Shown in pieces: positions 2,190-19,028 of a DNA stretch of 64,000 bases. Position 1 is the stretch's first letter; each line of letters begins with the position of its first letter. A program made the position numbers and the translations under genes. Under the pieces are notes generated by a model, which was given only the letters and a program-made list of their open reading frames with translations, was not told the origin of the DNA and ran no database searches. The DNA lies in assembly GCF_024436035.1 (NCBI RefSeq), contig NZ_JANFNG010000033.1, forward strand, positions 1 through 64,000. Direction: 5' to 3'. Source of the DNA: Streptomyces humicola. Lineage in GTDB: Bacteria; Actinomycetota; Actinomycetes; Streptomycetales; Streptomycetaceae.

Positions 2190-3851
2190 ATGGACCTTGT
2201 GGCACGGACCCCTGTGGTCATCGTGGGCGGCGGCCCAGTCGGTCTCGTCCTCGCCCTCTTCCTCGACGCCCAGGGTGTGCCGTGCGTGGTGTGCGAGGAG
2301 CGCGACGAAACGGACCCCTCCTTCGACCACCCCCGGGGCAACACCCACAACGCGCGCACCATGGAGCACTACCGCCGGCTCGGCATCGCCGACCGGGTGC
2401 GCGCCGTGGGCCTGCCCGACGAACACCCCACGGACGTGGCCTACTTCACCCGCTACAACGGCTATGAGCTGGCGCGCCTGCCGATGGCGTCCAGCGCCGC
2501 CAAGCGCCGCCGCGTCGCCTCGGCGCCGCGGGCGGACCAGGTACCGGAGCCGCTGCACCGGGCCAACCAGATGTACGTCGAGCGGTTTCTCGTCCGTCAT
2601 GCCCGCACCCGGTCCGCCATCACCCTTCGGTACGGCTGCGGGGTGGAGCGGGTCGTCCCGGACGCGGACGGCGTGACGGTGCACGATGTGCGCGGCCGGC
2701 GGCTGAGGGCTCGGTACGTGGTCGGCTGCGACGGCGGGCGGAGCTTGGTGCGCCGCTCGGCGGGGATCGCCTATGCCGGGCACTCCCGTCTCGACCAGGA
2801 CATTCTCGGGCGGCGGGCGACCGCGGCGCATCTGCGGCTGCCCACCCTGCGCCGGGACCTGCTCGGCGGGCGTGACGCATGGAGCTACTGGGCCGTCAAC
2901 GCCGAGGTCGTCGTCAACCTCATCGCTCTCGACGGCGCCGATGAGTACTCCCTGCTCACCAGCTCGGTCGACCCCGACAGCTTCGACGCGGAGCGGCTCG
3001 CGCGAATCGTGCGCTGCGCCGCGGGCACCGACCTGCCGGTCGAGGTGCTGGGCCACCGGCCGTGGACGCCGGGGGTGGCGCTGGTGGCCGAGAGCTTCGG
3101 GGAGGGGCGGGTGTTCCTCGCCGGGGACGCGGCCCATCTGTTCACGCCAACAGGCGGGTTCGGCATGAACACCGGCATCGACGACGTGGCCAACCTCTCC
3201 TGGAAGCTGGCCTCCCGCGTGCACGGCTGGGGCGGGGCACGGCTTCTGGACAGCTACGGCACGGAGCGCCGCCCGGTCGCGCTGCGGAACACCGCCGCGG
3301 CGCGTAACCTCAACCGCAACCTCGGGGAGATCGACCGGCCCGGCCATCTCGAGGAGGACTCGCCGACGGGGCGGGGTGCGCGGGCGGCGCTGGGCAACCG
3401 ACTCGGGGCGCTCGGTGAGCAGTTCGCGTCCATCGGCATACAGCTCGGTGCCCGTTACGACGGCTCGCCTGTCGTCGCCGACGGCGACCGGGACGCACCG
3501 CCCGCCGACTCCCTCACCACCTACATGCCCAGTGGCGTCCCCGGAGGCCGAGCCCCGCATTTGTGGCTGAACGGACGCCGTGACGCGGGAAGTTCGCTCT
3601 ACGACCGGTTCGGAACGGGGTTCACCCTGCTGCGTCTGGGCGGATCGCCGCCGGACGCCGGCGCGTTGCGCTCCGCGGCGGTCGCACGCGGGATTCCGCT
3701 GGCGGTCCTCGATCTCCCCGACCCGCTGGCGCGTGATCTCTACGGGCGCGACCTGGCTCTTGTCCGCCCGGACCAGTACGTGGCGTGGCGCGGCAACCGT
3801 CCACCGCCGGACGCCGACGCCCTGCTGGACCAGGTGACCGGCGCCCGTTGA
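2190..3851 (+). CDS. FAD-dependent aromatic hydroxylase (PHBH/MhpA type)
   Basis: This 553-residue flavoprotein of the p-hydroxybenzoate hydroxylase superfamily has all three FAD/NADPH motifs: GGGPVG at residues 13-18, the CDGG 'DG' motif, and the GDAAHLFTPTGGFG 'GD' motif followed by MNTGIDDVANL. The C-terminal thioredoxin-like tail typical of MhpA/PheA-like members is also present. By family it hydroxylates a phenolic ring, which could create the catechol for the dioxygenase next door. It follows the FAH gene by 13 bp and ends before a strong terminator at 3927-3967. It is clearly paralogous to the protein at 11721-13424; both contain the string QNARTMEHYRRLG or NARTMEHYRRLG. The copy here looks fully active. 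Substrate unknown. Confidence 0.88.
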   Translation: MDLVARTPVVIVGGGPVGLVLALFLDAQGVPCVVCEERDETDPSFDHPRGNTHNARTMEHYRRLGIADRVRAVGLPDEHPTDVAYFTRYNGYELARLPMASSAAKRRRVASAPRADQVPEPLHRANQMYVERFLVRHARTRSAITLRYGCGVERVVPDADGVTVHDVRGRRLRARYVVGCDGGRSLVRRSAGIAYAGHSRLDQDILGRRATAAHLRLPTLRRDLLGGRDAWSYWAVNAEVVVNLIALDGADEYSLLTSSVDPDSFDAERLARIVRCAAGTDLPVEVLGHRPWTPGVALVAESFGEGRVFLAGDAAHLFTPTGGFGMNTGIDDVANLSWKLASRVHGWGGARLLDSYGTERRPVALRNTAAARNLNRNLGEIDRPGHLEEDSPTGRGARAALGNRLGALGEQFASIGIQLGARYDGSPVVADGDRDAPPADSLTTYMPSGVPGGRAPHLWLNGRRDAGSSLYDRFGTGFTLLRLGGSPPDAGALRSAAVARGIPLAVLDLPDPLARDLYGRDLALVRPDQYVAWRGNRPPPDADALLDQVTGAR

Positions 3852-4087: not shown

Positions 4088-4915
4088 ATGTTGAGAATGT
4101 CTTCCACGGGAAAGTCGCGGCGTCTGGCCAGGCTGTCCGGTCACGGTGACGGCCGTTATCTGTTCGTGCCGCTCGACCACTCCGTCTCCGACGGCCCGAT
4201 AGCCGGCGTCGAACGCTTCGATGAGCTGGTCCGCGACGTGGTCGCCGGCGGTGCCGACGGCATCGTCGTGCACAAGGGCCGCGCTCGCGTCATCGATCCC
4301 GAACTCCTCAGGGACTGCTCACTGATCGTCCACCTGAGTGCCAGCACCGCGCACGCCCCCGATGTGGACGCCAAGGTCCTCGTCGGCGACGTCGAGGACG
4401 CCATCCGCCTCGGGGCGGACGCGGTCAGCGTGCATGTGAACATCGGCTCGCGGACCGAGGCTGCCCAGCTCGCCGACCTCGGAGCCGTCGCCGCGGCGTG
4501 CGACCGGTGGAACATGCCGCTGCTCGCCATGGTCTATCCGCGTGGCCCCCGGGTCACCGACCCCTCCGATCCCGTTCTGCTGTCCCATGTGGTCAACATC
4601 GCGGCCGACCTGGGGGTCGACATCGTCAAGACGGTGTTCGCCTCCCCCGCCGAGCGAATGGCCGAGGTCGTCGACAGCTCGCCCCTCCCGATCATCGTGG
4701 CAGGCGGCGATCTCGACGGCAGCATCGCGGACTTCGCGGCCTCAGCCCTCGCCGTCGGATGCCGTGGACTCGCCGTCGGGCGCAGGGTGTTCGGTTCCGC
4801 CACGCCTCGCGCCACCGTCCTCGAACTCGCCGGCATCGTCCACGATTCGGCCGGCTCCCTCCTTGACCGTCCCTCTCCGTCCCATCCCTCCCCGCGAATG
4901 GCAGGTGCTCTGTGA
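4088..4915 (+). CDS. griI: GriI-type aldolase (3,4-AHBA pathway, step 1)
   Basis: This 275-residue class I aldolase is of the DhnA / 2-amino-3,7-dideoxyheptulosonate synthase family. GriI-type members condense aspartate semialdehyde with dihydroxyacetone phosphate to a C7 amino-sugar-like precursor. Visible features are the phosphate-barrel start FVPLDHSVSDGP, the Schiff-base lysine in DIVKTVF (Lys181), and the late loop IIVAGGDLDGS. Length agrees with GriI/NspI/CreI proteins. ATG 4088 is chosen for the AAGGGAG site 5-6 bp upstream; an upstream ATG at 4055 would add 11 residues that look non-coding. The stop overlaps the next start (GTGA), which pairs it with the GriH-type gene. The pairing is what distinguishes 3,4-AHBA synthesis from archaeal-type shikimate entry. 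Reaction assignment rests on family knowledge. Confidence 0.88.
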   Translation: MLRMSSTGKSRRLARLSGHGDGRYLFVPLDHSVSDGPIAGVERFDELVRDVVAGGADGIVVHKGRARVIDPELLRDCSLIVHLSASTAHAPDVDAKVLVGDVEDAIRLGADAVSVHVNIGSRTEAAQLADLGAVAAACDRWNMPLLAMVYPRGPRVTDPSDPVLLSHVVNIAADLGVDIVKTVFASPAERMAEVVDSSPLPIIVAGGDLDGSIADFAASALAVGCRGLAVGRRVFGSATPRATVLELAGIVHDSAGSLLDRPSPSHPSPRMAGAL

Positions 4916-6015
4916 AGCTCAGCTGGATCGACATCCGTTCCGTCGGATCGGCGAAGGAAGCCGTCGTCGAAGAGGCGATCCACGCCCGGGTCGACGGCAT
5001 ACTCGCCTCCGACCCGGCGGAACTGTCCGCTCTGCCGCCGACGGTGAAGAAAATCCTGTTCCCCCAGGGCCAGACCCTCCCCGAGGACTTCGGGTCCGCG
5101 GACGTGGTCATCGTGGATCCGGCCAAGCACGGTGAACCGGCGGAACTGGCGCTGCGCCACCCCCAGGTGGAGTTCGGACGCTATGTCGAGATCGTCGACG
5201 CCGGGACGCTGGAGGAGGCCTGCCGCTCCGGACGTACGGAGAAGTGGAGCCTGCTGGACTTCCGTGATCCGACGAAGATCCCGCTGGAGATCGTGATTGC
5301 GGCGGCGGCCAAGGCCGACGGCAGTCTCATCACCATCGCCCGGGACGTCGAGGAGGCGGAGATCATCTTCGGCGTCCTCGAACTCGGCTCGGACGGCGTG
5401 CTCATGGCGCCGGCCAAGGTCGGCGACGCCACCGCCCTGAGGAAGTCAGCCGAGGCCGGTGTGCCCGATCTGCAGCTGGTGGAGCTGGAGATCACCGCCA
5501 CCGCTCATGTGGGCATGGGCGACCGGGCCTGTGTGGACACCGCCACCTACTTCCGTGAGGACGAGGGGATCCTGGTCGGCTCCCACTCCAAGGGCATGAT
5601 CCTCTGCGTCAGCGAGACCCACCCGCTGCCCTACATGCCGACGCGCCCCTTCCGCGTCAATGCCGGCGCCATCCACTCCTACACCCTCGGCCAGAACGAA
5701 CGCACCAACTACCTGAGCGAGCTGAAGGCGGGCAGCAAGGTCACCGCCGTGGACATCCACGGCAGGACCCGGCTGGTGACCGTGGGCCGCGTCAAGATCG
5801 AGAGCCGTCCGCTCATCTCCATCGATGCGGTCGGCCCCGAAGGCCGCACCGCCAATCTGATCCTCCAGGACGACTGGCACGTCCGCGTGCTCGGCCCGGG
5901 CGGGGTGGTGCTCAACAGCACCGAACTCAAGCCGGGGGACAAGGTGCTCGGCTATCTGCCCGTGGAGGACCGCCACGTCGGCTACCCGATCGACGAGTTC
6001 TGCCTGGAGAAGTGA
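4912..6015 (+). CDS. griH: GriH-type 3-amino-4-hydroxybenzoate synthase (DHQS-II family)
   Basis: This 367-residue protein is of the archaeal-type 3-dehydroquinate synthase II family. GriH/NspH/CreH members take the C7 product of GriI and aromatise it to 3-amino-4-hydroxybenzoic acid. Diagnostic stretches include KWSLLDFRDPTKIPLE (about residues 104-119), GDRACVDT, VGSHSKGMILCVSE and PTRPFRVNAGAIHSY, all evenly conserved, so it appears intact. It starts at GTG 4912 inside the stop of the aldolase (GTGA), implying translational coupling. An ordinary Streptomyces makes dehydroquinate with AroB, so this homologue in a cluster points to 3,4-AHBA. Known products built on 3,4-AHBA include grixazone, bagremycin, platensimycin and cremeomycin. 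Confidence 0.9.
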   Translation: MKLSWIDIRSVGSAKEAVVEEAIHARVDGILASDPAELSALPPTVKKILFPQGQTLPEDFGSADVVIVDPAKHGEPAELALRHPQVEFGRYVEIVDAGTLEEACRSGRTEKWSLLDFRDPTKIPLEIVIAAAAKADGSLITIARDVEEAEIIFGVLELGSDGVLMAPAKVGDATALRKSAEAGVPDLQLVELEITATAHVGMGDRACVDTATYFREDEGILVGSHSKGMILCVSETHPLPYMPTRPFRVNAGAIHSYTLGQNERTNYLSELKAGSKVTAVDIHGRTRLVTVGRVKIESRPLISIDAVGPEGRTANLILQDDWHVRVLGPGGVVLNSTELKPGDKVLGYLPVEDRHVGYPIDEFCLEK

Positions 6016-6018
6016 GAA

Positions 6019-6939
6019 GTGAGCCCGGTGGAGGAGAAGGCGTTGATCGCGGCGCGGGAGTTCGGCGACGACGAGGCGCGCTGGCATGCAGTGCTGCGGC
6101 GCGACCGGCGGGCGGACGGAGCGTTCTGCTACTCGGTGCTGACGACCGGCACCTACAGCCGTCCGTCGTGCGGATCCCGGCACGCTCGCCGCGCCAACAC
6201 GATCTTCTTCCCCGATCCGGCGGCAGCGGAAAGAGCGGGCTTCCGTCCGTGCCGGCGCTGCCGCCCGGACCGGGCATGGCACGACGCGCACGATATACAC
6301 GTCGAAGCAGTCCTGCGCTCGTGCCGGCTGATGGAGGCTCCGGGACCGGCCCCGTCGCTCGGTGAGCTCGCGGCCGCCACGGGATTCAGCCGGTTCCACT
6401 TCCACCGCGTCTTCACCTCGCTGACGGGAGTCACCCCCAAGGCCTACGCCGTCGCCTGCCGCGCCGACCGGCTCCGGCAGGCGATCCCCAGGACGAGGAC
6501 CATCACCGAAGCCATCTACGAAGCCGGGTTCAACTCCAGTGGAAACTTCTACGCGTTGGCGCAGCACCTGCTCGGCATGACCCCCACCGCGTTCAAGAAC
6601 AGCGGGCGCGGTGTGCGTATCCGTTACGCATGCGCCGAGTACGAGCTCGGCCGGCTGCTCATCGCCGCGACGCCCACCGGCATCTGTTCCGTGCTCTTCG
6701 GAACCGACACCGAGACCCTCGTTCGGCGACTGCGTGCCCGTTTCGCCGAGTCGGGACTGTCCGCTGCGGAACCCGGCCTCGACCGGAGACTGGCCGTGAC
6801 ACTGCGCGGTGCGGCGCCACTTGCGGGAAGCCACGGCATCCCCTGGGACATCCGCCGCAGGGCACTGGGGGAATGGCTTCGCTCAGCGCTCAACGAGTCG
6901 AACGTGTCATGGGCACAGACACCGACGGCCCAATGCTGA
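6019..6939 (+). CDS. Ada-like AraC regulator with lost methyl-acceptor Cys and truncated C-terminus
   Basis: This 306-residue protein has the Ada layout: an N-terminal zinc domain (about 25-90), an AraC-type helix-turn-helix (about 105-195), and the start of an Ogt-like domain. The four zinc/acceptor positions keep exact Ada spacing, but the first is serine: Ser47, Cys51, Cys78, Cys81 correspond to E. coli Cys38, Cys42, Cys69, Cys72. Cys38 is the methylphosphotriester acceptor that switches Ada on. The C-terminal domain stops before the PCHR active site, so O6-methylguanine repair is impossible. The stop lies in the first copy of a 13-bp direct repeat (6927-6939 and 6949-6961), perhaps a deletion scar. 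It begins 3 bp after griH. It probably regulates the cluster and no longer repairs DNA; whether it senses alkylation another way is open. Confidence 0.85.
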   Translation: MSPVEEKALIAAREFGDDEARWHAVLRRDRRADGAFCYSVLTTGTYSRPSCGSRHARRANTIFFPDPAAAERAGFRPCRRCRPDRAWHDAHDIHVEAVLRSCRLMEAPGPAPSLGELAAATGFSRFHFHRVFTSLTGVTPKAYAVACRADRLRQAIPRTRTITEAIYEAGFNSSGNFYALAQHLLGMTPTAFKNSGRGVRIRYACAEYELGRLLIAATPTGICSVLFGTDTETLVRRLRARFAESGLSAAEPGLDRRLAVTLRGAAPLAGSHGIPWDIRRRALGEWLRSALNESNVSWAQTPTAQC

Positions 6940-6961
6940 TCCCATGCCGGCCCAATGCTGA
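6927..6961 (+). repeat. 13-bp direct repeat at the end of the Ada-like gene
   Basis: GGCCCAATGCTGA occurs at 6927-6939 and again at 6949-6961. The first copy contains the stop codon of the Ada-like gene. Such a repeat is what a slipped-strand or recombination deletion could leave, fitting the missing Ogt active-site half. Confidence 0.8.
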
Positions 6962-6997
6962 CCGAAAGCCGATCGATGGCTCAAGAGAGGCACACCA

Positions 6998-8761
6998 ATG
7001 ATCATTTTCGGGTCCCAGCGGACCGTCGCCCAGCGCCTGCGCCTGACGGCGAACCGGCGGCTCGGCGCGGGCAACTTCTTCTGGCACGCCTGGCAGACCG
7101 CGAACGACCGGGACAGGCCGATCCTGTTCCACCCCGATACCACCTCACCCACCTGGGACGAGGGCGAGCTGCCGGGCGTGTCCCTCAACGAGATGCGGAT
7201 CCGCGTCATCAGGTACGCGCACTGGTACCGCAGCCACGGAGTCGTGCCGTCGACCCATGTCGGAGTCTGCACGCGCAACGGCCTGTTCGGGCTGCTACAC
7301 CACATAGCGATCACCAGCCTCGGCGCGGTCGCCGTGCACTGCAACCCCAACATGCCCACGGATACGGCCGCCGAGTACTTCCGGCGCACCCGCACGACGA
7401 TCCTCGTCGCGGACCAGGACCGGCTGGCCGGCTGTGCCGAGGCCTGGTCCCAGTCGGGCGCCGCCTCGGGCAAGGCGATCCTGACCGAGGACATCGCCAC
7501 GCTCGAGGCGACCGCCCCGCGGCCGACCGGGCCGCTGCCGGGATTCCCGTACCGGCACCAGGGCGACGACCTGGTGATGATCTCGCACTCCTCCGGAACG
7601 ACCGGCCGGCCCAAGGCACCGGTCTTCACCCACGAGTCGTTCTTCAACGGCAAGCGGGAACGACTGTGGACCTTCCCGTCCCTGCGTTCCGACCGGATGC
7701 TCACTGCGCTGCCGCACAGTCACTCCGCGGGCATCAGCTATCTGAGCATGGCCGTGATGCTGGGCATCCCCACCCTCGTGCTGGACGCGACGGACGGTGC
7801 GTCGGTGGCCCGGGCGATCAACCGCTTCCGGCCCACCTTCGTCCTCGGATTCCCGCTCACCCTGGCGGAGACCGACGTCTCCCGCATCACCCCGTACGCA
7901 GCACAGGCCATCCACTCCTGGTACGGCATGGGGGACGCCTCCCATGAGCGGCACATCCGCCCGCTGACGTCACTGGGCACGCGGCGCCACAGGGGCCGCA
8001 GGCTCACCGGCTCCCAGTACATCGACGGCCTGGGCTCGTCCGAGATGGGGATGGTCCTGTTCAAGCAGGTGTTCACCCCCGAAAGCTCCGGCTACGGGCG
8101 GCTGATCGGCAGGCCGGTCAAGGCCGTGCGTGATGCCGCGGCCCTCGACGGGCAGGGCCGTCCGCTGCCGGACGGCGAAGCCGGGCTGCTCGGGGTCCGC
8201 ACGCCCAGCATCACTCCCGGGTACTGGGACGACCCGGCGCTGAGCCGGGATTCCGTCAGCAACGGCTATTTCCTGACCGGGGACGTCGTCCGGAGGGACG
8301 GCAACGGACTGTGGTACCACCTCGACAGGACCCCCGATGTGATCGGCACCGCCGACGGCCCGGTGTACAGCCTCCCGCTCGAAGAGGCCGTCCTGATGAC
8401 GACTCAGGCGCTCGACGCGGCGGTCGTCGCCGTGGACGATCCCGACAACGCGGGGACGTCGCTCCCCGCAGCCGTCGTCATGTTCGGCGACGAAGCGGCC
8501 AGCTCCCCGCAGGAGCTGCTGGACCGGTGCACTGCGGCGCTGCGCAACCGCGGGCTGGTGCCGCTCAGTGCCCTGGTCGTCGCCGCAGACCGCAACGAGC
8601 TTCCCGTCGGCCCCACCGGCAAGGTGCTCAAGCGACGGCTGCGCGAAGCGCACCGCGACATCCTGCGCCGGCCGGCGGAAGGGGCCGTCGCCCACCACCG
8701 CACGGCGCAGGCGCGGCCACCGGCACGGCCACAGCCGCAGCCACAGCCACAGGCCGAATAG
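6998..8761 (+). CDS. creM: CreM-like AMP-forming ligase, candidate aryl-amine diazotase
   Basis: This 587-residue acyl-adenylate-forming enzyme has A3 motif SHSSGTTGRPKAP, A5 IDGLGSSEMG, A7 FLTGDVVRRDG, A8 DRTPDVIGTADGP and A10 PTGKVLKRRL with the adenylation lysine Lys542. The A8 hinge is unusual, without the common glycine pair before the following strand. In cremeomycin biosynthesis the homologous CreM uses ATP and nitrite to diazotise an ortho-hydroxy aryl amine. The same role is likely here because nitrite-forming and 3,4-AHBA genes flank it. A plain carboxylate CoA- or AMP-ligase is the alternative. ATG 6998 has an AGAGAGG site 7 bp upstream. The last 25 residues are a low-complexity Pro/Gln tail. 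The gene ends 55 bp before the methyltransferase gene. Confidence 0.8.
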   Translation: MIIFGSQRTVAQRLRLTANRRLGAGNFFWHAWQTANDRDRPILFHPDTTSPTWDEGELPGVSLNEMRIRVIRYAHWYRSHGVVPSTHVGVCTRNGLFGLLHHIAITSLGAVAVHCNPNMPTDTAAEYFRRTRTTILVADQDRLAGCAEAWSQSGAASGKAILTEDIATLEATAPRPTGPLPGFPYRHQGDDLVMISHSSGTTGRPKAPVFTHESFFNGKRERLWTFPSLRSDRMLTALPHSHSAGISYLSMAVMLGIPTLVLDATDGASVARAINRFRPTFVLGFPLTLAETDVSRITPYAAQAIHSWYGMGDASHERHIRPLTSLGTRRHRGRRLTGSQYIDGLGSSEMGMVLFKQVFTPESSGYGRLIGRPVKAVRDAAALDGQGRPLPDGEAGLLGVRTPSITPGYWDDPALSRDSVSNGYFLTGDVVRRDGNGLWYHLDRTPDVIGTADGPVYSLPLEEAVLMTTQALDAAVVAVDDPDNAGTSLPAAVVMFGDEAASSPQELLDRCTAALRNRGLVPLSALVVAADRNELPVGPTGKVLKRRLREAHRDILRRPAEGAVAHHRTAQARPPARPQPQPQPQAE

Positions 8762-8816
8762 CCACCGGCCGCACAGCAGACACGCCACAACACCCCGACA
8801 CCGAAAGGCTCGACAC

Positions 8817-9890
8817 ATGGCCGGCAGGCATCCCGCACGCCGCGTGGTGGACATCCTCACCGGTGCCTGGCAGGCGCAGGCGCTCTACGCGGCCGCCGCA
8901 CTGGATCTTCCCGACCACATCACCGCCGGGAACACCACCGCCGCCCGACTGGCCGCCGTCACCGGATCCGACCAGGACGGCATCGAGCGTCTCATGCGGC
9001 TGCTGACCGCCATGGGCGTTGTCGACGGCACGCCCGGGGAGGGCTACCGGCTGACGGATGTCGGCACTCTGCTGCGCTCGGACGACGACCGGTCGATGCG
9101 CGACATGGCGGTGATCTACGGCGAGGAGTTCCACCGTGCCTGGGGCGAGGTGGTCCCCGCCGTACGCACCGGCACATCCGGATTCGAGCACGCCTTCGGC
9201 ACCCCGCTGCGCGGCTACCTGGAGCGGGAGCCGGGCGCGGCAGTGCGGTTCCAGCGGGCCATGAACGCCGGCAATGTGTTCTTCGCCGACGTGGTGAAGG
9301 CGTACGACTTCACCGCCTGCCGCACCGTCGTCGATGTGGCAGGGGGCAGCGGCATGCTGCTCTCCACCATCCTGCAGGCCCACCCGCACCTGCACGGGCT
9401 GCTCTTCGACCTCCCGCACGTGATACCCGTGGCGGAGGAGCACCTCTCCCGGACGCTGGGGCCCGGCCGCTGCCGCACCGTCGGAGGGGACGCCTTCCGC
9501 GCCGTTCCGCCGGGAGCCGACGCGTATCTGCTCTCCCGTGTGCTGCAGGACTGGGACGACGCCAGGTGTACACAGCTGCTCTCCACCGTCCGCGCGGCGA
9601 TGCCCGACACGGCCCGGCTGCTGATCCTCGAGCGGGTCATCCCCACCGCCGGCTCCACCGCCGACTCCACCGACGGCGAGGGGGTCCTGGCCCTGCTGTG
9701 GGATCTGCACCTCCTCATGGCGGCCGGCGGCAGAGAACGCACCCTCGACGGTTACCGGACCCTCCTGGACGGGGCCGGACTGCGGCTGGAATCCGTCGTC
9801 CCGCTGGCCCTCGAAACCAGCCTGCTGATCGCGGCGCCGGCGCAGGACCGCCCGGTCGCCCCGCAGACGCGCGAACACAAGGAAGCGTGA
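8817..9890 (+). CDS. SAM-dependent O-methyltransferase
   Basis: This 357-residue class I methyltransferase is of the acetylserotonin/plant-type O-methyltransferase family. An N-terminal winged-helix dimerisation domain (about 1-100) precedes a Rossmann domain with the SAM loop VVDVAGGSGM (about 163-172) and the following acidic strand LLFDLPHV. Members methylate phenolic hydroxyls. Cremeomycin carries a methoxy group installed by such an enzyme, so ring O-methylation of a hydroxylated aminobenzoate or diazoquinone is likely. ATG 8817 is preceded by GAAAGG. The stop overlaps the next ATG (TGATG at 9888-9892), so it is coupled to the flavoprotein. It is the only obvious SAM user in the cluster served by the metK cassette. 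Confidence 0.88.
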   Translation: MAGRHPARRVVDILTGAWQAQALYAAAALDLPDHITAGNTTAARLAAVTGSDQDGIERLMRLLTAMGVVDGTPGEGYRLTDVGTLLRSDDDRSMRDMAVIYGEEFHRAWGEVVPAVRTGTSGFEHAFGTPLRGYLEREPGAAVRFQRAMNAGNVFFADVVKAYDFTACRTVVDVAGGSGMLLSTILQAHPHLHGLLFDLPHVIPVAEEHLSRTLGPGRCRTVGGDAFRAVPPGADAYLLSRVLQDWDDARCTQLLSTVRAAMPDTARLLILERVIPTAGSTADSTDGEGVLALLWDLHLLMAAGGRERTLDGYRTLLDGAGLRLESVVPLALETSLLIAAPAQDRPVAPQTREHKEA

Positions 9891-11728
9891 TGAACTCATC
9901 CCGTCGACCGACCCCGGCCGACCGGCACACACCCGTTCTGATCGTGGGCGGCGGGGGGTCCGGGCTCACCGCCTCCCTCGTCCTGTCCGACCTCGGCATC
10001 GGCTCGCTGCTCGTCGAACGACACCCCAGCACGTCGGTGCAGCCCAAGGCGCACATCCTCAACGCCCGCACGATGGAGATATTCGCCCACCACAAGGTGG
10101 CCGACGACATCTACCGCGAAGGAGCTCCGCAGGAGAACTGCGGTGCCATGGTGTGGCTCTCCAGCCTCGGCGGCGACGAGCCCTACGACCGCAAGGTGCT
10201 GCACCGGGCCGACGCGTACGGCGGTGGAGCACTGGCCGGCCGTTACGCGCAGGCATCCGCCTACCGGCACGCCAATCTCGGCCAGCGGTGGCTCGAACCC
10301 CTGCTGCGCCGCCACGCCGAGGAACGCGCCCCGGGCAGCCTGCTCTTCCACCACGAACTGACGGACCTCACCGAGGACGACGACGGAGTGACGGCCACGG
10401 TGCTGGACCGCACCTGCGGCCGGAGCTTCCAGGTGCGTGCGGCGTACGTCATCGCCGCCGACGGCGGCAAGACCGTCGGCCGGCTGCGGTCCATCCCCAT
10501 GCTCGGCACGCCGACGTTCATGGAGTGGATCAACCTCCATGTGCGGGCCGACTTCTCGCCGTTCATCCCCTACGACGACGCCGTCGTCAACCGCGTCTCC
10601 AGCCTGTCGGAGGACGGAACCCTGGAGCACTGCGGCGTGGTGCCCATGGGACCGCGCAACTGGGGCCGCTTCTCCGAGGAGTGGACCTTGATGTTCTCCA
10701 GGCCGCCCGGCGACCGCGACGCGGCCGGGCTCGACGACGAGACCATCGTCAAGATGGTGCGCCGCACGCTGAAGCTCTCCGACGACCACGCCATGGAGGT
10801 GCAGAGCATCAGCCGCTGGCCCGTGGAGGGAACGGTCGCCGAGCGGTTCCGCTCCGGCCGCGTCTTCCTCGTCGGGGACGCCGCACACCGCCATCCGCCC
10901 TCCGGTGCCCTCGGTCTGAACACCGGTGTCCAGGATGCGCACAATCTCGCCTGGAAGCTCGCCTACGTCATCGACGGCCTGGCGGGCCCGTGCCTGCTCG
11001 ACAGCTATGAGGCCGAGCGTCGCCCGGTGGCGCAACGCGTCGTGGAGCGTGCCCTTTTCTCGCTCTTCAACCAGATCGCCTTCACCTCGGGGACTGCAGT
11101 GGTGCCGGGCGCACGGCCGGAGTGGAACCGCGCCCAGATGACGGCGCTGTTCTCCGACACCCCGGACGGTGAGACCAGGCGAGCCGTCCTGCGCGAGTAC
11201 TTCGACACCAACCGGATCACCACGGCCCACCTCGGCCTCGAGATGGGATACGACTACGCCGATGCGGGCTTCGTCGGCGACGACCGGACCGCGCGCCCCC
11301 AGCCGGACCCGCTCGGTCTCACGCTGGTGCAGTCCGCCCGGCCGGGCTCCCGGCTGCCGCACTCCTGGCTGCGCCATGGCCAACAACGCCTCTCCACACA
11401 CCAGTTGCAGGCTGCTGCGGGATCGTTCCTGCTGGTGGCGGGCGCGGGCGGCGCCGCCTGGCTGTCGGCCGCGAGGAAGCTGTCGGAGGCGCGCGGCGTC
11501 CCCGTCACAGCCCACGCCGTCGGGGCCGACGGCGGCCCGGTCGACGCCGACGGCACCTGGACGCGGCTGCGCGGCCACGACGAGGACGGCGCGGTGCTGG
11601 TCCGCCCGGACGGCTATGTGGCCATGCGCTGGCTGTCGGGATGCGCGCAGCCTGCCGATGCTCTCGACGCGGCGCTCGACGCCGCTCTCGCCCGCGAGCC
11701 GGGAGGGAGTGCGCCGACGGATGAGTGA
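9890..11728 (+). CDS. FAD-dependent aromatic monooxygenase (CreL candidate)
   Basis: This 612-residue PHBH-superfamily flavoprotein has intact motifs: GGGGSG at residues 20-25, AADGGKTVG as the DG motif, and GDAAHRHPPSGALG followed by LNTGVQDAHNL as the GD motif. It also carries a C-terminal thioredoxin-fold tail of the phenol-hydroxylase subgroup. It is more distant from the other two cluster flavoproteins than they are from each other, so it is a separate lineage. In the cremeomycin pathway a flavin enzyme (CreL) hydroxylates 3,4-AHBA at C2, and this gene is the best candidate by neighbourhood. It overlaps the methyltransferase stop by one base and the next gene by 8 bp. The substrate is inferred. 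Confidence 0.85.
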   Translation: MNSSRRPTPADRHTPVLIVGGGGSGLTASLVLSDLGIGSLLVERHPSTSVQPKAHILNARTMEIFAHHKVADDIYREGAPQENCGAMVWLSSLGGDEPYDRKVLHRADAYGGGALAGRYAQASAYRHANLGQRWLEPLLRRHAEERAPGSLLFHHELTDLTEDDDGVTATVLDRTCGRSFQVRAAYVIAADGGKTVGRLRSIPMLGTPTFMEWINLHVRADFSPFIPYDDAVVNRVSSLSEDGTLEHCGVVPMGPRNWGRFSEEWTLMFSRPPGDRDAAGLDDETIVKMVRRTLKLSDDHAMEVQSISRWPVEGTVAERFRSGRVFLVGDAAHRHPPSGALGLNTGVQDAHNLAWKLAYVIDGLAGPCLLDSYEAERRPVAQRVVERALFSLFNQIAFTSGTAVVPGARPEWNRAQMTALFSDTPDGETRRAVLREYFDTNRITTAHLGLEMGYDYADAGFVGDDRTARPQPDPLGLTLVQSARPGSRLPHSWLRHGQQRLSTHQLQAAAGSFLLVAGAGGAAWLSAARKLSEARGVPVTAHAVGADGGPVDADGTWTRLRGHDEDGAVLVRPDGYVAMRWLSGCAQPADALDAALDAALAREPGGSAPTDE

Positions 11729-13424
11729 CTCCCCCGACTCTCTGCACACGCCGGTGGCCGTCGTCGGAGGCGACCCGGCCGGCCTGATGCTCGCCCTCTT
11801 CCTGGACCACCATGGCGTGCCCAGCGTGGTCTTCGACGTCTGCGACCCCGACGGCGCCCCTCGGAACCCGCCGTGCGCCACCACGCAGAACGCGCGGACG
11901 ATGGAGCACTACCGGCGCCTGGGCGTCTCCGCCTCGATACGCCGTCTCGGCCTGCCCTGCGAACACCCCACCGACATCGCGTTCTTCACCCGGTACAACG
12001 GCCACGAACTGTCGCGCCTGCCGTTGCCCGGCACCACGCAGCGGCTGCGCCGGGTCGCCGCGGCGCCCCGCACGGACCAGCTGCCCGAGCCGGCCCACCG
12101 CGTCGACGACACGCGCGCCCGCGCGTTTCTGCACGACCATGTCCGCACCCGGCCGAACATCACGGTGATGTCCGGACGAACGGTCACCGGCGTGGAGCAG
12201 GACGCGGACCGGGTGCGGGTACGGGCCGAGCGCCCGGGCCACGCCCGTGAGGAGTGGACGGCCCGCTACGCAGTGGTGAGCGACGCCGGACGGGACCTCG
12301 TGCACCACACTCTCGGCATCCGCTACGAACGGCCCGGCCCGCTCGACCGGAACAGCCGCGGGTACGGAGTGACCACGGCGCACCTGCGCCTGCCCGGCTT
12401 CCACCGGGACGTGCTCGCCGGAGCGCCTGCATGGAGCCACTGGGTGCTGAACGCGGAACTCGTCGCGCAGCTCGTCGCGCTGGGCGGTGCGGATGAGTTC
12501 CTGTTCCGGGTGGCCGGCCCGGCGGACGCCGGCCCGCTTGGAGAGGGCCGGCTCACCGACGTGGTCCGGCGGGCCGCGGGAACCGCCCTGCCCGTCGAGA
12601 TCCTCGGCCCGTGCTCCTGGACTCCCGCCGCGGCTTACGTGGCGGAACGGTTCATAAGGGGAAGGATCTTCCTTATGGGGGATTCCGCCCATCCGGCGGG
12701 CCTCTATGGCGACTTCATGATGAACGCGGGCGTCGACGACGCCGCCAACCTCGCCTGGAAGCTCGCCGCTGTGCTGCAGGGCTGGGGCGGACCGCAGTTG
12801 CTTGCAAGCTACGAGGCAGAACGGCGGCCTGCCGCCGTGCGCGCCCTCGCCGCCGCACGCGAACTCGACGCCGAACTGAACGCAATCACCCGCCCGGCGG
12901 CCCTGGAGGCGTGCACTGCCGAGGGGGAAGCCGTCCGTGACCGCACGGGGGCGCTGCTGCGCGGATTCGGCGAGCACACCCACGCCGTCGGCATCCAACT
13001 CGGCACCCGCTATGACGATTCACCGGTCGTCGCCTCTCAGGCGCAACCGCCCGGTGACTCCTGGGGTACCTACGTTCCCACGAGCGTTGCGGGCGGCCGT
13101 GCCCCGCACTTGTGGCTGGACGACTGGCACGGCCGGGGCAGTTCTCTGTTCGACAGGTTCGGCCCCTGCTGTAGCCTGCTGCGCCTGGGGCCCGAGCCGC
13201 CCAGCGGGAAGCCGCTGCAGGCCGCTGCCCAGGCGAGCGGCATGCCGTTGACCGTGCTGGACGTCGACGGCGACGCCGCCCGCGACCTGTACGAGCGGGA
13301 CCTGGTGCTGATCCGCCCCGACCAGCATGTGGCGTGGCGGGGGAACCGGTGGCCGACGGACCCGGGCGACCTGGTCGCGCTGGTGACCGGAGCGGGACAG
13401 CAGTGGCCGGGGAGGCGGGTATGA
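11721..13424 (+). CDS. Degenerate PHBH-type flavoprotein, probable pseudoenzyme
   Basis: This 567-residue protein is a full-length paralogue of the hydroxylase at 2190-3851, sharing for example NARTMEHYRRLG, FFTRYNGHELSRLP and the whole C-terminal thioredoxin-like tail. Its cofactor motifs are broken. The Rossmann loop reads GGDPAG instead of GGGPVG (Asp18 for Gly), the DG motif reads VVSDAG instead of VGCDGG, and the GD-motif loop reads HPAGLYGDFMMNAG instead of HLFTPTGGFGMNTG. The arginine after the second strand (HPRGN) is replaced by a cysteine-containing segment. The frame is open throughout with normal codon use and tight overlaps to both neighbours, so it is maintained rather than a dead gene. 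It may be a structural partner or chaperone of the active paralogue, or use a modified cofactor mode. Confidence 0.82.
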   Translation: MSDSPDSLHTPVAVVGGDPAGLMLALFLDHHGVPSVVFDVCDPDGAPRNPPCATTQNARTMEHYRRLGVSASIRRLGLPCEHPTDIAFFTRYNGHELSRLPLPGTTQRLRRVAAAPRTDQLPEPAHRVDDTRARAFLHDHVRTRPNITVMSGRTVTGVEQDADRVRVRAERPGHAREEWTARYAVVSDAGRDLVHHTLGIRYERPGPLDRNSRGYGVTTAHLRLPGFHRDVLAGAPAWSHWVLNAELVAQLVALGGADEFLFRVAGPADAGPLGEGRLTDVVRRAAGTALPVEILGPCSWTPAAAYVAERFIRGRIFLMGDSAHPAGLYGDFMMNAGVDDAANLAWKLAAVLQGWGGPQLLASYEAERRPAAVRALAAARELDAELNAITRPAALEACTAEGEAVRDRTGALLRGFGEHTHAVGIQLGTRYDDSPVVASQAQPPGDSWGTYVPTSVAGGRAPHLWLDDWHGRGSSLFDRFGPCCSLLRLGPEPPSGKPLQAAAQASGMPLTVLDVDGDAARDLYERDLVLIRPDQHVAWRGNRWPTDPGDLVALVTGAGQQWPGRRV

Positions 13425-15400
13425 GCGCAAGCGGTCTCGAGGTCTGCATCGTAGGGGCAGGCCCGCGCGGACTGTCGGTGCTGGAACGACTCTGCGCCAA
13501 CGAGCGCACCCATGCCTCGCATTCGTCCCTCGTCATCCACGTCGTCGACCCGTTTCCTCCGGGCCCGGGCCGGGTCTGGCGCACCACCCAGTCCGGTCTG
13601 CTGCTGATGAACACGGTGGCCTCTCAGGTCTCCGTCTTCACCGACGACAGCGTGGAGATGGACGGTCCTGTCGAGCCGGGTCCCAGCCTCTACGAGTGGG
13701 CCGAGTCCGTGGTCCGGTCCGGTGGTCCGGACCGGTACGACGACAGGACCCTCGCCGAGGCCCGCGACCTCACCCCGGATGCGTACCCGACCCGCGCCTT
13801 CTACGGTCACTATCTGGCCGACGCCTACCGGCGGGTCAAACAGAAGGCGCCCTCGCACTGCACCATCCGGGAACACCGCACGCGGGCGGTTGCACTGCAC
13901 GACGCCGGCGGCGTCCCCGGCGGCCCGCAGACCCTCGTCCTCGCGGACGGAACCCGGCTCACCGGCCTGGACGCGATCGTCCTCGCCCAGGGGCACCTGC
14001 CGGCCCGCCCGACCGCGCAGGAGCAGGAATGGGCCCGCACCGCCGCTGCGTGCGGGCTGACCTACGTACTGCCCGCCAACCCCGCCGACCTTGACCTGAC
14101 CGCCGTGAAGCCGGGCCGGACGGTGCTGATGCGCGGGCTCGGCCTGAACTTCTTCGACCACATGGCACTGCTCACCCGGGGCCGCGGCGGTTCGTTCGAA
14201 CGGCACGGCGACCGGCTGGTCTACCACCCCTGCGGGCAGGAGCCGCGCATCTGGGCCGGTTCCCGGCGCGGAATCCCCTACCACGCGCGGGGCGAGAACG
14301 AGAAGGGCGCCCACGGCCGCTACATCCCGCGCCTCCTGACGCCGGAGATGATCGGCCGGCTGCGGAGCCGGGCCGTGGACGCCGAGCGCGTCCACTTCGG
14401 CACCGACCTGTGGCCGCTGATAGCCAAGGAGGTCGAGAGCGTCTACTACGAGACGCTCCTCGCCGCACGGAGGCAGGAACACCAGGCACCGCGCTTTGCG
14501 CGCCGCTACCTTGCGGCCGGCGACGGCGAGGCCGAACACCGCGTGCTGGACGACTTCGCGATCGCCGCGTCCGAACGGTGGGACTGGGAGGCCGTCGCCC
14601 GGCCAATCGGACGACGGCGCTTCGCCGACCGCGACAGCTTCCGCGGCTGGCTGCTCGACCATCTGGCACGGGACGTGCACGAGGCAAGGGCCGGCAACCT
14701 CAGCGGGCCTCTCAAGGCTGCCCTGGACGTCCTGCGCGACCTGCGCAACGAGATACGGCTCGCCGTCGACCACGGCGGTCTCGAAGGCAACTCCTACCGC
14801 GACGACCTGCAGGGCTGGTACACACCGCTCAACGCCTACCTGTCCATCGGCCCTCCCGCCTCCCGTATCGAGGAACTGCGCGCCCTCATCGAGGCGAACG
14901 TGGTGGACATCATCGGCCCGGACCTGGAGATCGGCATCGACACCGGCGACCGCCCGGCGTTCGTGGCCGTCTCCAAGGCGGTCGACGCCGAACCCGTCCG
15001 GGCCGAGGTCCTCATCGAGGCCCGGCTGCCCGAGCCCGACCTCAGGCGCACCGGCGACGCCCTGCTGCGCCAGTTGATGATGAGCGGCCAGGCAGTCCCG
15101 TACCGCCTCGAAGGCAGCTGCGGCACCACCTACGAGACCGGCGGTCTGGCGATCACCGAGCGCCCCTACCGGACGGTGGACGCCCACGACCGCGTCCATC
15201 CGCGCCGCTTCGCCTACGGCGTCCCCACGGAAGCCGTGCACTGGGTGACGGCGGCCGGCATACGGCCCGGCGTGAACTCGGTGACGCTCGGGGACTCCGA
15301 CGCCATCGCCCGCGCGGTACTGTCCCTGGCTCCCGCACCGACTGCCCCTGCCACTTCCACGGGCCGGCATGGCTCCGCACTGGTGGAGATGACGACATGA
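13421..15400 (+). CDS. creE: CreE-like flavin N-oxygenase (aspartate to nitrosuccinate)
   Basis: This 659-residue protein is an FAD/NAD(P)-binding protein of the large NAD_binding_9 type. The N-terminal FAD site is VGAGPRG (residues 11-17), and a second nucleotide loop is visible as RGLGLNFFD (about residue 232). A long C-terminal part includes the arginine-rich GSRRGIPYHARGENEKG region. CreE/FzmM-type members oxidise the amine of L-aspartate through three rounds to nitrosuccinate with NADPH and oxygen. Identification relies on overall family appearance plus the directly coupled lyase gene (ATGA overlap at 15397). It also starts in an ATGA overlap with the degenerate flavoprotein. An ornithine-type N-hydroxylase is less likely, since no siderophore genes are near. 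Confidence 0.83.
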   Translation: MSASGLEVCIVGAGPRGLSVLERLCANERTHASHSSLVIHVVDPFPPGPGRVWRTTQSGLLLMNTVASQVSVFTDDSVEMDGPVEPGPSLYEWAESVVRSGGPDRYDDRTLAEARDLTPDAYPTRAFYGHYLADAYRRVKQKAPSHCTIREHRTRAVALHDAGGVPGGPQTLVLADGTRLTGLDAIVLAQGHLPARPTAQEQEWARTAAACGLTYVLPANPADLDLTAVKPGRTVLMRGLGLNFFDHMALLTRGRGGSFERHGDRLVYHPCGQEPRIWAGSRRGIPYHARGENEKGAHGRYIPRLLTPEMIGRLRSRAVDAERVHFGTDLWPLIAKEVESVYYETLLAARRQEHQAPRFARRYLAAGDGEAEHRVLDDFAIAASERWDWEAVARPIGRRRFADRDSFRGWLLDHLARDVHEARAGNLSGPLKAALDVLRDLRNEIRLAVDHGGLEGNSYRDDLQGWYTPLNAYLSIGPPASRIEELRALIEANVVDIIGPDLEIGIDTGDRPAFVAVSKAVDAEPVRAEVLIEARLPEPDLRRTGDALLRQLMMSGQAVPYRLEGSCGTTYETGGLAITERPYRTVDAHDRVHPRRFAYGVPTEAVHWVTAAGIRPGVNSVTLGDSDAIARAVLSLAPAPTAPATSTGRHGSALVEMTT

Positions 15401-16818
15401 CGCAGGGATTCGACGGCGGGCCCGACACCGGGCTGCTCTCGCCGGTACGGGCCGGCGTACCGGTCGAAGAAGCCGTCTGCGATCGTGCGTGGCTGCAGGC
15501 GATGCTCGACGCCGAGGCGGCGCTGGCCAGAGCCCAGGCTGCGCTGGGGACCGTACCGGCGTCGGCCGCCGCCGCGATCACCCGCGCCGCACGCGCCGAG
15601 CAACTGGACCTGCGCGTGCTGGCACTGGCAGCCCGGGAGACCGCGAATCCGGTCGTCGGCCTCGTCCAGGCCCTCACCCGGACGGTCGCGGCCACCGACC
15701 CCGCCGCCGCCGAGTACGTGCACCGGGGATCGACCAGCCAGGACGTACTGGACACCGGGGCCGTGCTCGTGTGCAGCAGGGCACTGGGGCTGATCCGCGC
15801 CGACCTCACGCAGGCGGCCACGGCCCTGACCCGGCTCGCCGAGCGGCACCGCGGCACGGTGATGGCCGGCCGCACGCTCTCCCTGCACGCGGTGCCCACC
15901 ACGTTCGGGCTCAAGGCCGCCGGATGGCGCCAGCTGATCGTGGACGCGGAGGCACGGCTGGCCGGCGTGCAGCGTGCGCTGCCGGTGTCGCTGGGCGGAG
16001 CCGCGGGCACCCTCGCCGGCTACCTGGAATACGCGGCTCTCGACGGACCCGGGATGGATCCCGGGGCCTACCTCGACCGGCTCGTCGACCGGTTCGCCGC
16101 CGAGACCGCGCTGGCCCGGCCGGTCCTGCCCTGGCATGCGCTGCGCACACCGATCGCCGATGCGGCCGCGGCACTCTCCTTCACCGCGGGAGCGCTGGGC
16201 AAGATCGCGGCCGATGTGCAGGTGATGGCCAGAACGGAGATCGACGAGATTTCCGAACCCGGCCCGGCCGGGCGCGGCAGTTCCTCCGCGATGCCCCACA
16301 AACGCAATCCCGTGCTGACCACCTTGATCCGCAGCGCCACCCTCCAAGTCCCCGCACTCGCCACCGCTCTGACCCAGTGCATGGTCTGCGAGGACGAGCG
16401 TTCGGCCGGCCCGTGGCACGCCGAGTGGCTGCTGCTGCGCGAATGCCTGCGGCTGGCCGGCGGCGCCGCCCACACGGCGGCCGAGCTGACCGGGGGACTG
16501 GTCGTCAAACCGGACCGCATGCGGGAGAACCTGGCGCTCACCGGCAGCAAGGTGGTGACCGAGCGAGTCGCCGCGGTGCTCGCTCCCCGGCTCGGCAAGG
16601 CCCGTGCGAAGGAACTGCTCACCCACGCCTCGACCACCGCGGACCAGGAGGGACGTCCGCTCGCCGAGGTGCTCATCGAAATCCCGGACGTCGCCCGGCA
16701 TCTCGACGCGAAGGCGCTGGAAGAGCTTCTCGACCCCACCGCCTACACCGGTGCCGCCGAGGCACTGGTGGCGCGCGCACTTGACGTACGTGCACCGACT
16801 GACCAACGGACCGCCTGA
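15397..16818 (+). CDS. creD: CreD-like nitrosuccinate lyase (aspartase/fumarase superfamily)
   Basis: This 473-residue protein belongs to the fumarase/adenylosuccinate lyase/carboxymuconate cycloisomerase superfamily. The first conserved region is [12 protein letters not shown] and the signature loop is [12 protein letters not shown], with the catalytic serine among Ser295-297. CreD-type members eliminate nitrous acid from nitrosuccinate, leaving fumarate. Sequence alone would also fit 3-carboxy-cis,cis-muconate cycloisomerase or adenylosuccinate lyase. The one-base-pair-level coupling to the CreE-like gene makes nitrosuccinate lyase the best call. A muconate role would need an intradiol dioxygenase, and the one in this cluster is extradiol. 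The gene ends 16 bp before metK. Confidence 0.83.
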
Positions 16819-16834
16819 CCAAGGGACCGTATTC

Positions 16835-18043
16835 ATGGCAAAGCGCCTGTTCACCTCGGAATCCGTGACCGAGGGACACCCCGACAAGATCGCCGATCAG
16901 ATCAGCGACACCATCCTCGACGAGCTCCTGCGTCAGGACCCGGCCTCCCGGGTCGCCGTGGAGACGCTCATCACCACCGGCCAGGTCCACATCGCGGGCG
17001 AGGTGACCACCACCGCGTATGCGCCGGTCGCCGAGCTCGCCCGCAACAAGATCCTCGAGATCGGATACGACTCGTCGGCGAAGGGCTTCGACGGGGCCTC
17101 CTGCGGCGTCTCGGTCTCCCTCGGCGCGCAGTCGCCCGACATCGCCCGAGGTGTCGACAGCGCCTACGAGCAGCGGATCGAGGGCGCCGGCGAAGAGCTC
17201 GACCGGCAGGGCGCGGGCGACCAGGGCCTGATGTTCGGCTATGCGACCGACGAGTGCCCCACCCTGATGCCGCTGCCGATCGAACTGGCGCACCGGCTCT
17301 CCCGCCGGCTGGCCGAGGCGCGCAGGGACGGCACCATCCCCTATCTGCGGCCCGACGGCAAGACCCAGGTCACGGTGGAGTACCAGGGCAGCCGCCCGGT
17401 ACGACTCGACACCGTGGTCGTCTCCTCCCAGCACGCGGGCGACATCAGCGTGGAGCAACTGCTCACCCCCGACATCCGCGAATACGTCGTCGATCATGTC
17501 CTCGCAGGACTCGCCGACGACGGGATCAAGCTGGAGACGGAGGGTCACCGGCTGCTGGTCAACCCCACCGGCCGTTTCGAGACCGGCGGCCCGATGGGCG
17601 ACGCCGGCTTGACCGGACGCAAGATCATCATAGATACGTACGGCGGCATGGCCCGTCACGGCGGCGGCGCCTTCTCGGGCAAGGACCCCTCGAAGGTGGA
17701 CCGTTCGGCCGCGTACGCGATGCGGTGGGTGGCCAAGAACGTGGTGGCCGCGGGCCTGGCCTCGCGGTGCGAGGTGCAGGTGGCGTATGCGATCGGCAAG
17801 GCCGAGCCGGTGGGTCTGTTCGTGGAGACCTTCGGCACCGCGGTCGTGGCGCAGTCGCGGATCGAGCAGGCCATCGCCGAGGTCTTCGACCTGCGCCCGG
17901 CCGCGATCATCCGCGACCTGGACCTGCTGCGCCCGATCTACGCCCAGACCGCCGCCTACGGCCACTTCGGGCGCGAACTGCCCGACTTCACCTGGGAGCG
18001 CACCGACCGCGTCGACGCGCTGCGCGCGAGTGCAGGAGTCTGA
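16835..18043 (+). CDS. metK: S-adenosylmethionine synthetase
   Basis: This 402-residue MetK makes SAM from methionine and ATP. The N-terminal signature [20 protein letters not shown], the ATP-binding GxGDQG equivalent [12 protein letters not shown], and the P-loop [19 protein letters not shown] are intact, and length is normal. A Streptomyces already has a housekeeping metK elsewhere, so this is probably a cluster copy raising SAM supply for the O-methyltransferase. ATG 16835 has a weak AAGGGA site. It is followed 1 bp after its stop by the adenosine-kinase-like gene. Confidence 0.95.
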
Positions 18044-18044
18044 G

Positions 18045-19028
18045 ATGCGCATCGCCGTCACCGGTTCGATCGCCACCGACCACCTGATGGTCTTCCCAGG
18101 ACGCTTCGCCGAGCAGCTGATCCCCGGTCAACTGGACCGCGTATCCTTGTCGTTCCTCGCCGACTCCCTTCAGGTGCGGCGCGGAGGAGTGGGCGCCAAC
18201 ATCGCCGTCGGCCTGGCGCGGCTCGGTCTGCGGCCGCTCCTCGTCGGTGCGGCCGGCAAGGATTTCGCGGAGTACGACGCCTGGCTGCAGAACACCGGAG
18301 TGGACACCGGGTCGGTGCGGGTCAGCGAGACTGTGCACACTGCCCGCTTCATCTGCACCACCGACGCCGACCACAACCAGATCGCCACCTTCTATGCCGG
18401 TGCGATGTCCGAAGCCGGTCAGATCACTCTCGCCTCGGTCGGCGGACGCGCCGGCGTGCCCGACTTGGTGGTGATCGCACCCAACGATCCCCAGGCCATG
18501 CTGCGCCACACCGAGGAGTGCCGAAAGCTCGGCCTGCCGTTCGCCGCCGATCCCTCCCAGCAGTTGGCGCGGCTCGGCCGGGAGGAGGCGCGCCTGCTGG
18601 TGGAAGGCGCCGACTTCCTGTTCACCAACGAGTACGAGGCGGCCCTGCTGCAGGAACGCACCGGCTGGACGCGGGCCCGCATACTCGCCACGACCGGCGC
18701 CTGGGTGACCACCCTCGGCCCGCAGGGTGCGATGATCGCCCGGCAGGATCAGCCTCCCTTGCACGTCGCCGCCGTGCCCACCACGGAGGCGGCCGACCCC
18801 ACCGGCGTAGGCGACGCGTTCCGGGCCGGACTCCTGGCGGGTGTCTCCTGGCGGTTGCCCCTGCGGCGGGCCGCTCAACTCGGTTGCGCGGTTGCCACGG
18901 TGGTCCTCGAATCGGTCGGCACACAGGAGTACAAGCTGGTGCCGGCGGACCTGCTGAGCCGCATCACGACGGCCTATGGCCCGGCCGAGGCATCGGAGAC
19001 CGAACCGTACCTGGTGGGCCTGTTATGA
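18045..19028 (+). CDS. adoK: PfkB-family adenosine kinase
   Basis: This 327-residue ribokinase/PfkB-fold kinase resembles actinobacterial adenosine kinase: N-terminal [15 protein letters not shown], substrate glycine pair [17 protein letters not shown], and the catalytic loop [14 protein letters not shown] with the base Asp. Adenosine kinase would remove adenosine released when S-adenosylhomocysteine is broken down, relieving product inhibition of methyl transfer; that is why it fits beside metK and metF. The final sense codon (19023-19025) is TTA, a rare codon in Streptomyces read by the bldA tRNA, and it overlaps the metF start (ATG 19025). Another sugar or nucleoside substrate cannot be excluded. 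Confidence 0.85.

Follow-up and report, generated by a model that had tools for sequence, protein, structure and literature searches.

What a gene cluster might make when it joins the genes of cremeomycin-type chemistry with genes for the repair of alkylated DNA is the question raised by the left end of contig NZ_JANFNG010000033.1 of Streptomyces humicola. The window, meaning the whole stretch of 64,000 nucleotides considered here (bases 1-64000 of the 67,368-base contig), was analysed up to ~37000; it starts at contig base 1, so any leftward part of the cluster is cut off. The enzymes encoded, their order and conservation, their association with a repair module and a common promoter motif can be read from the sequences. 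Together they point to a nitrite-arylamine cluster with a DNA-alkylating product, cluster-borne repair and a circuit built on an extracytoplasmic function (ECF) sigma factor, an explanation that we consider probable as a whole.

The core of the cluster is a run of genes on the plus strand, for which an earlier note on this DNA had proposed cremeomycin-type chemistry. All the cluster genes that it named were found as open frames on that strand, no more than a few bases from where it had placed them. A GriI-type DhnA aldolase at 4088..4915, predicted for the first step to 3-amino-4-hydroxybenzoate (AHBA), scores 271 bits with the BagB/FevI model (cut-off 500), and a GriH-type 3,4-AHBA synthase of the DHQS-II family at 4912..6015 scores 680.8 bits with the BagC/FevH model (cut-off 750). 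These exception-type models are under their cut-offs and the subfamily models are over theirs, the one for GriH being a broader DHQS-II subfamily model; both genes match AHBA-type families as had been claimed. The CreD-type nitrosuccinate lyase at 15397..16818, which would release nitrite, scores 775.5 bits with the nitrosuccinate lyase model NF052556 (cut-off 650) and shares 306 of 458 aligned residues with CreD (67%). A PDB search returned CreD (5xny) first with 574.7 bits and muconate cycloisomerase (1re5) second with 278.9, and the rival family models for carboxymuconate cycloisomerase and purB gave 403.7 and 188.6 bits, so neither of these families is the better match. The CreE-type N-hydroxylase at 13421..15400 has a single PDB match, 8cp2 (E 2e-198), and a single Pfam match, NAD_binding_9, which sets it apart from ornithine N-hydroxylases; 8cp2 is an L-aspartate N-hydroxylase making nitrosuccinate (PMC10404684). 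CreE and CreD produce nitrous acid (PMC11705231), and the AHBA and nitrite steps are predicted here because their families hold tested members from the grixazone and cremeomycin pathways (PMC11429834, PMC11705231).

The step that would join the two branches falls to an ANL-family nitrite-activating ligase at 6998..8761 on the plus strand, a putative diazotase or N-nitrosase with 58-85% identity to its counterparts in 25 named loci. Its best NCBIfam model is the 3-aminoavenalumate diazotase AvaA6, and as the score of 342 bits lies far under the cut-off of 975, the protein is only a distant diazotase relative. A related ligase, Tri17, also forms other N-N bonds (PMC11705231). The cremeomycin-type proposal thus holds in part: the sequences lend good support to AHBA synthesis, to nitrite formation from aspartate and to a ligase that activates nitrite with ATP, but a diazo end group is no more than a possibility, given the distance from diazotases and the example of Tri17. 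The N-N group may be a diazo group (diazoquinone), an N-methyl-N-nitroso group or a triazene.

The same strand carries a predicted S-adenosylmethionine (SAM)-dependent O- (or N-) methyltransferase at 8817..9890 (Methyltransf_2 with a dimerisation domain) and two flavin ring hydroxylases, A at 9890..11728 and B at 11721..13424, all three as already described. To these we add a third flavin ring hydroxylase at 2190..3851 (plus strand; Pfam FAD_binding_3), a homologue of hydroxylase B, and an Ada-derived AraC regulator at 6019..6939 (plus strand). Downstream of the lyase follow, on the plus strand, an S-adenosylmethionine synthetase (metK) at 16835..18043, which is one of three copies in the genome, a PfkB-family sugar/nucleoside kinase, possibly an adenosine kinase, at 18045..19028, a methylenetetrahydrofolate reductase (MTHFR) at 19025..19957 and an O6-alkylguanine-DNA alkyltransferase (OGT) at 19995..20519, whose PCHR motif is present in 21/21 cluster OGTs. 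The last gene, at 20524..21231 on the minus strand, encodes Oxygenase-NA, an AlkB-like DNA-damage oxygenase dependent on 2-oxoglutarate (2OG) and Fe(II). None of these seven genes was in the earlier note; the cluster is larger than first described, and the note's remark that extra genes may change the product is supported.

In the explanation proposed here, GriI and GriH would supply 3-amino-4-hydroxybenzoate, which the flavin hydroxylases and the methyltransferase would modify with SAM provided via metK, PfkB and MTHFR, genes that fit a product needing methylation. CreE and CreD would turn aspartate into nitrite, and the ATP-using ANL ligase would couple this nitrite to the nitrogen of the arylamine. 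DNA would be methylated or otherwise alkylated by the product or through its breakdown, and the host would protect itself by direct reversal, with OGT acting on O-alkyl bases and Oxygenase-NA on N-alkyl bases. Expression would be tied to repair by an ECF sigma factor with an MGMT/Ada-zinc fusion protein that keeps its acceptor motifs, and by the Ada-derived regulator that has lost them.

Relatives of the cluster were sought by the ligase alone, using an alignment of six members, which yielded 25 named loci from Streptomyces and Streptacidiphilus; adding the window and the two genomes G065 and G343 brings the set to 28 clusters. The gene order recurs in genomes under four genus labels (g1, g3, g7 and g9) and is therefore not a product of chance. 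Two forms were observed. Type I has the order of the window with hydroxylase A, which is found in 9/28 clusters; in type II, GriI and GriH are placed further off and extra genes occur in varied combinations, namely an HpaB hydroxylase, a flavin reductase, a second methyltransferase, berberine-type oxidases, a cupin, SDRs, MFS pumps and SARP regulators; type I clusters hold some of these as well. The extra families were identified by scanning one member of each. Gene families were found in the following numbers of the 28 clusters: methyltransferase 27, family of the third hydroxylase 27, CreE 27, CreD 23, MetK 20, PfkB 18, GriH 18, GriI 17, MTHFR 10, OGT 18, Oxygenase-NA 14, Ada 14, sigma gene 21 and MGMT fusion 21. 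Most of these counts are lower bounds, as several stretches end at contig ends or at limits of 20-40 kb. At least one gene for OGT, Oxygenase-NA or the MGMT/Ada-zinc fusion is present in 23/28 clusters, and in 24/28 when the Ada regulator is counted. Of the five clusters without repair genes, four (pyxinae, niveiscabiei, ISL-66 and roseolus) end at a contig end downstream and that of S. iconiensis is intact there. Out-group ligases with 41-45% identity showed no module genes in 11 fetched stretches, a weak control since only 2/11 adjoin CreE/CreD.

Another part of the module is a pair of genes found in 21/28 clusters, in which the ECF sigma gene is followed by a gene for the MGMT/Ada-zinc fusion and overlaps it stop to start in 20/21 cases. 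The fusion joins an MGMT domain to a C-terminal Ada zinc domain, with PCHR kept in 19/21 and the Ada-type acceptor motif in 20/21. Its AlphaFold model, of modest confidence with a mean pLDDT (predicted local distance difference test) of 68 (four other models, 39.7-44.1), aligns to MGMT structures over about 165-195 columns. The possibility of an obvious anti-sigma fold was not supported, as there was no anti-sigma match among the 50 structure matches listed. In the fusion of G065 (L034, 14798-15604) a threonine replaces the PCHR cysteine; CreD was not found in the same cluster.

Among 367 family genomes sampled, 23 carry the fusion gene, and 11 of these hold a window-type ligase (split into pieces in G073). 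Among the remaining 12 fusion-gene loci, 9 hold SznF and are of the streptozotocin type; the SznF of one (L117) matches the PDB SznF over all 471 residues with 988 bits, and the other members are 71-93% identical to it. These clusters resemble the window type in having the ECF sigma gene and the MGMT/Ada-zinc fusion, often OGT, in some cases Oxygenase-NA, and the shared promoter motif upstream of the sigma gene. They differ in the source of the N-N bond, which in the window type is predicted to come from nitrite and the ANL ligase; no SznF match was found in the 28 window-type stretches searched. In the tree of fusion genes the SznF and AHBA rows are mixed: the best tree has 4 changes, of which well-supported branches force only 1, and repeated transfer or sharing of the gene between the two kinds of cluster is at most suggested. 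As a side observation, in two SznF clusters (L160 and L161, in G056 and G165) genes for Oxygenase-NA and OGT and short F10 genes lie ~14-15 kb away from the fusion gene. That the predicted product is likely to methylate DNA is concluded from the repair and fusion genes held in common with the SznF clusters.

The strongest competitor to this reading is an ordinary cremeomycin-like cluster, in which a methoxylated aminohydroxybenzoate would be converted to an ortho-diazoquinone and the repair genes would serve against incidental damage by the diazo compound. The set of AHBA, CreE, CreD, ligase, hydroxylase and methyltransferase genes is as in cremeomycin, and the best named relative of the ligase is a diazotase; we put this reading somewhat below an even chance. 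Against it stands the module shared with clusters for SznF methylating agents. OGT and AlkB-like enzymes, moreover, reverse alkyl lesions and not aryl adducts. A comparison of CreE loci bears on the same point: of 150 CreE loci listed, 10 belong to the present ligase group and 140 are others, and Oxygenase-NA lies within 40 kb of CreE in 9/10 in-group loci and the fusion gene in 8/10, compared with 0/140 for either gene (Fisher p ~1e-13 and ~1e-11 for these comparisons, with the 40-kb limit picked after the data were seen and a few of the 140 loci possibly falling outside both samples). In the two in-group loci with no fusion gene nearby, this gene is on another contig; the in-group locus lacking a nearby Oxygenase-NA gene is that of G065. 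It is not obvious how a plain diazoquinone of the cremeomycin kind would account for the repair and fusion genes.

A second rival product is an N-methyl-N-nitroso arylamine or a methyl-triazene. Here the methyltransferase would N-methylate the arylamine and the ligase would stop at N-nitrosation, giving a streptozotocin-like warhead without SznF. The module common to the SznF clusters agrees with this, as does the position of the methyltransferase gene, which is directly 3' of the ligase gene in 27/28 clusters. Two SznF clusters are also in favour of it (G103:C12, with L157 and L108, and G232:C1, with L115 and L158), where SznF is clustered with GriI, GriH and F8/F14/F1-type genes (F8 being a ligase), alongside genes for berberine-type oxidases and the module of sigma factor and MGMT fusion; no close relative of the window ligase was found in these two genomes, and a possible product is an aminohydroxybenzoate-nitrosourea hybrid. 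For the crexazone (crx) cluster, the authors of the study propose an N-methylation, possibly by CrxN (PMC11429834). On the other side of the balance, the substrate choice of the methyltransferase and of the ligase is read from their families, and the methyltransferase family is mostly O-specific. N-nitroso-N-methylanilines are also weaker direct methylators than nitrosoureas. We regard this product type as possible but rather doubtful.

Two further explanations fare worse. The repair genes might guard against nitrite itself, which could nitrosate cell amines to methylating or carboxymethylating species whatever the product; CreE and CreD do yield nitrous acid (PMC11705231), yet the other 140 CreE loci listed have neither Oxygenase-NA nor the fusion gene within 40 kb, which makes this improbable. 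That the repair genes lie there by chance, or as passengers of a genomic island, is extremely unlikely despite the 4-8 OGT domains per genome (24 genomes searched), given their conservation across genus labels and a common promoter, and the CreE-locus comparison led us to reject chance neighbourhood.

The common promoter supports the DNA-alkylating explanation from the side of regulation. By enumeration before the sigma gene we derived the motif GCAAC-N15-GGTGTT, which has 46 sites in 23/28 clusters compared with 0-1 in each of 10 shuffles. Nearly all of these (45/46; 12.5% expected) lie no more than 300 bp upstream of a gene, the targets being the sigma gene (17), the SDR gene F7 (14), the MFS gene F16 (4), the ligase-like F8 (3), the ring hydroxylase F17 (2), others (5) and none (1). 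The 17 sigma-gene sites served to derive the motif and the remaining sites did not. The motif also precedes the sigma gene in 13/14 module loci (L106-L119). In the source genome there are 11 sites compared with 2 for the reversed pattern, although 6/11 have a 16-base spacing and may be due to chance; none of the 11 lies within the window.

A more specific version of the preferred explanation, which we consider possible but less likely than not, is a second, SznF-independent route to an N-N warhead that methylates DNA, in which the ANL ligase puts aspartate-derived nitrite on a SAM-methylated aminohydroxybenzoate, and the fusion protein senses self-inflicted DNA methylation and releases or activates the ECF sigma factor to drive repair, export and biosynthesis genes via the common promoter. 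The logic has a parallel in Caulobacter, where the targets of a methylation-responsive regulator include an AlkB-like gene (PMC10957082). The Ada-derived regulator of the window has an AraC-type DNA-binding domain and, in an alignment with E. coli Ada, a serine at the methyl-acceptor position, which we take to be Cys38 in the E. coli numbering. Serine occupies this position in 12/12 Ada rows having the stretch, the window's included (2/14 rows are without it), and the C-terminal PCHR motif is present in 0/14 Ada regulators. A working methyl sensor is ruled out by these two features; the protein is probably a repurposed, non-methylatable activator, and we can only guess that the acceptor change makes it permanently active.

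The missing pieces of the window cluster may lie elsewhere in the source genome. Contig C56 (4,565 bases) carries the fusion, sigma, second OGT, methyltransferase and cupin genes, and the motif precedes its sigma gene. At its right end, contig C33 has SARP, SDR and F8-type ligase genes with the promoter motif, and contig C52 has an MFS pump that shares 83% identity with a pump of the S. monashensis cluster. As judged by how the genes are ordered in S. parvus, A0958 and S. monashensis, the genes on these three contigs may be missing parts of the cluster. With this linkage, the streptozotocin-type module set would be divided between the window (OGT and oxygenase) and C56 (sigma, fusion and second OGT). 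The right end of C56 (L106, G000:C56; 4230-4565) reads like the start of a transposase gene, which could explain the assembly break.

Several observations weigh against the explanation preferred here. Genes are its basis throughout, so that each reaction, the DNA alkylation, the sensing and the kind of N-N group are deduced, and the three additional contigs are assigned through the gene order of relatives. The ligase was placed by its ANL family and the AvaA6 model, with CreM outside the comparison, and the SAM-cycle genes would be equally suited to plain O-methylation. As the Ada regulator of the window is not methylatable at the classical site, its presence does not in itself speak for sensing. 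S. iconiensis (L064) is a contrast case, having GriH, the ligase (58%), the methyltransferase, GriI, CreE and CreD in another order with no repair module found in its stretch. In strain DH5 (L047) the type I order is kept and both CreE and CreD are absent between the hydroxylase and MetK; another source of nitrite would be needed, unless the cluster is dead or altered. CreD is also missing from the stretches of G065 and 4-A2, where the rest of the order is kept, and the Oxygenase-NA gene of G065 is 4 Mb away from the cluster. Finally, three fusion-gene loci (L112, L114 and L116) have neither SznF nor a window-type ligase; L114, on a short contig, has another gene of the SznF set and L112 holds other type II genes. 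Separately, the ligase, CreE and hydroxylases of 4-A2 (Streptacidiphilus sp.; L066, L100 and L101) match in several short pieces, which may reflect sequencing errors or decay.

Among known systems, the cremeomycin cluster (cre, BGC0001295) of Streptomyces cremeus is like the window in AHBA synthesis, CreE/CreD nitrite formation, the ANL ligase and the methyltransferase, as far as described in PMC11705231 and PMC11429834. The window differs in showing two to three hydroxylases, the Ada-derived regulator, metK/PfkB/MTHFR, OGT and Oxygenase-NA, with the repair-gene content of cre outside this comparison. The hydroxylase of the cre cluster is CreL. A CreD like that of S. cremeus was found in none of 391 sampled genomes at E 1e-220. 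The crx cluster of the crexazones shares AHBA genes and CreD/CreE/CreM/CreN homologues with the window but has LuxR/TetR regulation, and the portions of PMC11429834 considered mention no repair genes. The ava and cma clusters for avenalumic and p-coumaric acid share CreE/CreD and an ATP-dependent diazotase, but their aryl amine is a polyketide and the diazo group is removed (PMC10777205, PMC11705231).

The association of cremeomycin and streptozotocin genes is partly in print, since PMC12224297 describes one such region, on NZ_CP047019.1 and found via a small SARP gene. It has cremeomycin-like aldolase, DHQS-II, CreE-like and CreD-like genes next to a streptozotocin-like 2OG oxygenase, two MGMT and a sigma factor, and is apparently a type II member. 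The single paragraph given to this candidate cluster there names no ligase, promoter, sensor, product or mechanism. In open-licence papers we found no report of the spread of the family, the CreE control, the promoter, the fusion protein or the acceptor-less Ada. The at least 28 clusters form an orphan family that can be tied to a predicted action, DNA methylation, ahead of any isolated compound. The sigma/MGMT-fusion module and its promoter may serve as a marker for further natural methylating agents. The clusters also provide a system in which control of antibiotic production by a DNA-damage sensor can be tested, and the question is raised whether CreM-like ligases form N-nitroso groups in vivo.

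The borders of the cluster are less well defined than its core. Two possible members lie at the left, a protein of the glyoxalase/extradiol-dioxygenase fold at 166..1119 on the minus strand (Pfam Glyoxalase), with a homologue that the S. monashensis cluster carries between its sigma gene and GriI, and a fumarylacetoacetate-hydrolase-family protein at 1325..2176 on the plus strand (Pfam FAA_hydrolase), found in 3/28 clusters. For the genes to the right of 21231 (orf500, Gfo/Idh and a glycine-cleavage operon), conservation with the cluster was not found in the 28 clusters; this includes the 500-residue protein at 21561-23063, which has no Pfam match and adjoins the Gfo/Idh/MocA oxidoreductase gene. 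At the contig edge, positions 1-145 contain a short tandem repeat with a unit of about ten bases (CGGGCTCCGC-like).

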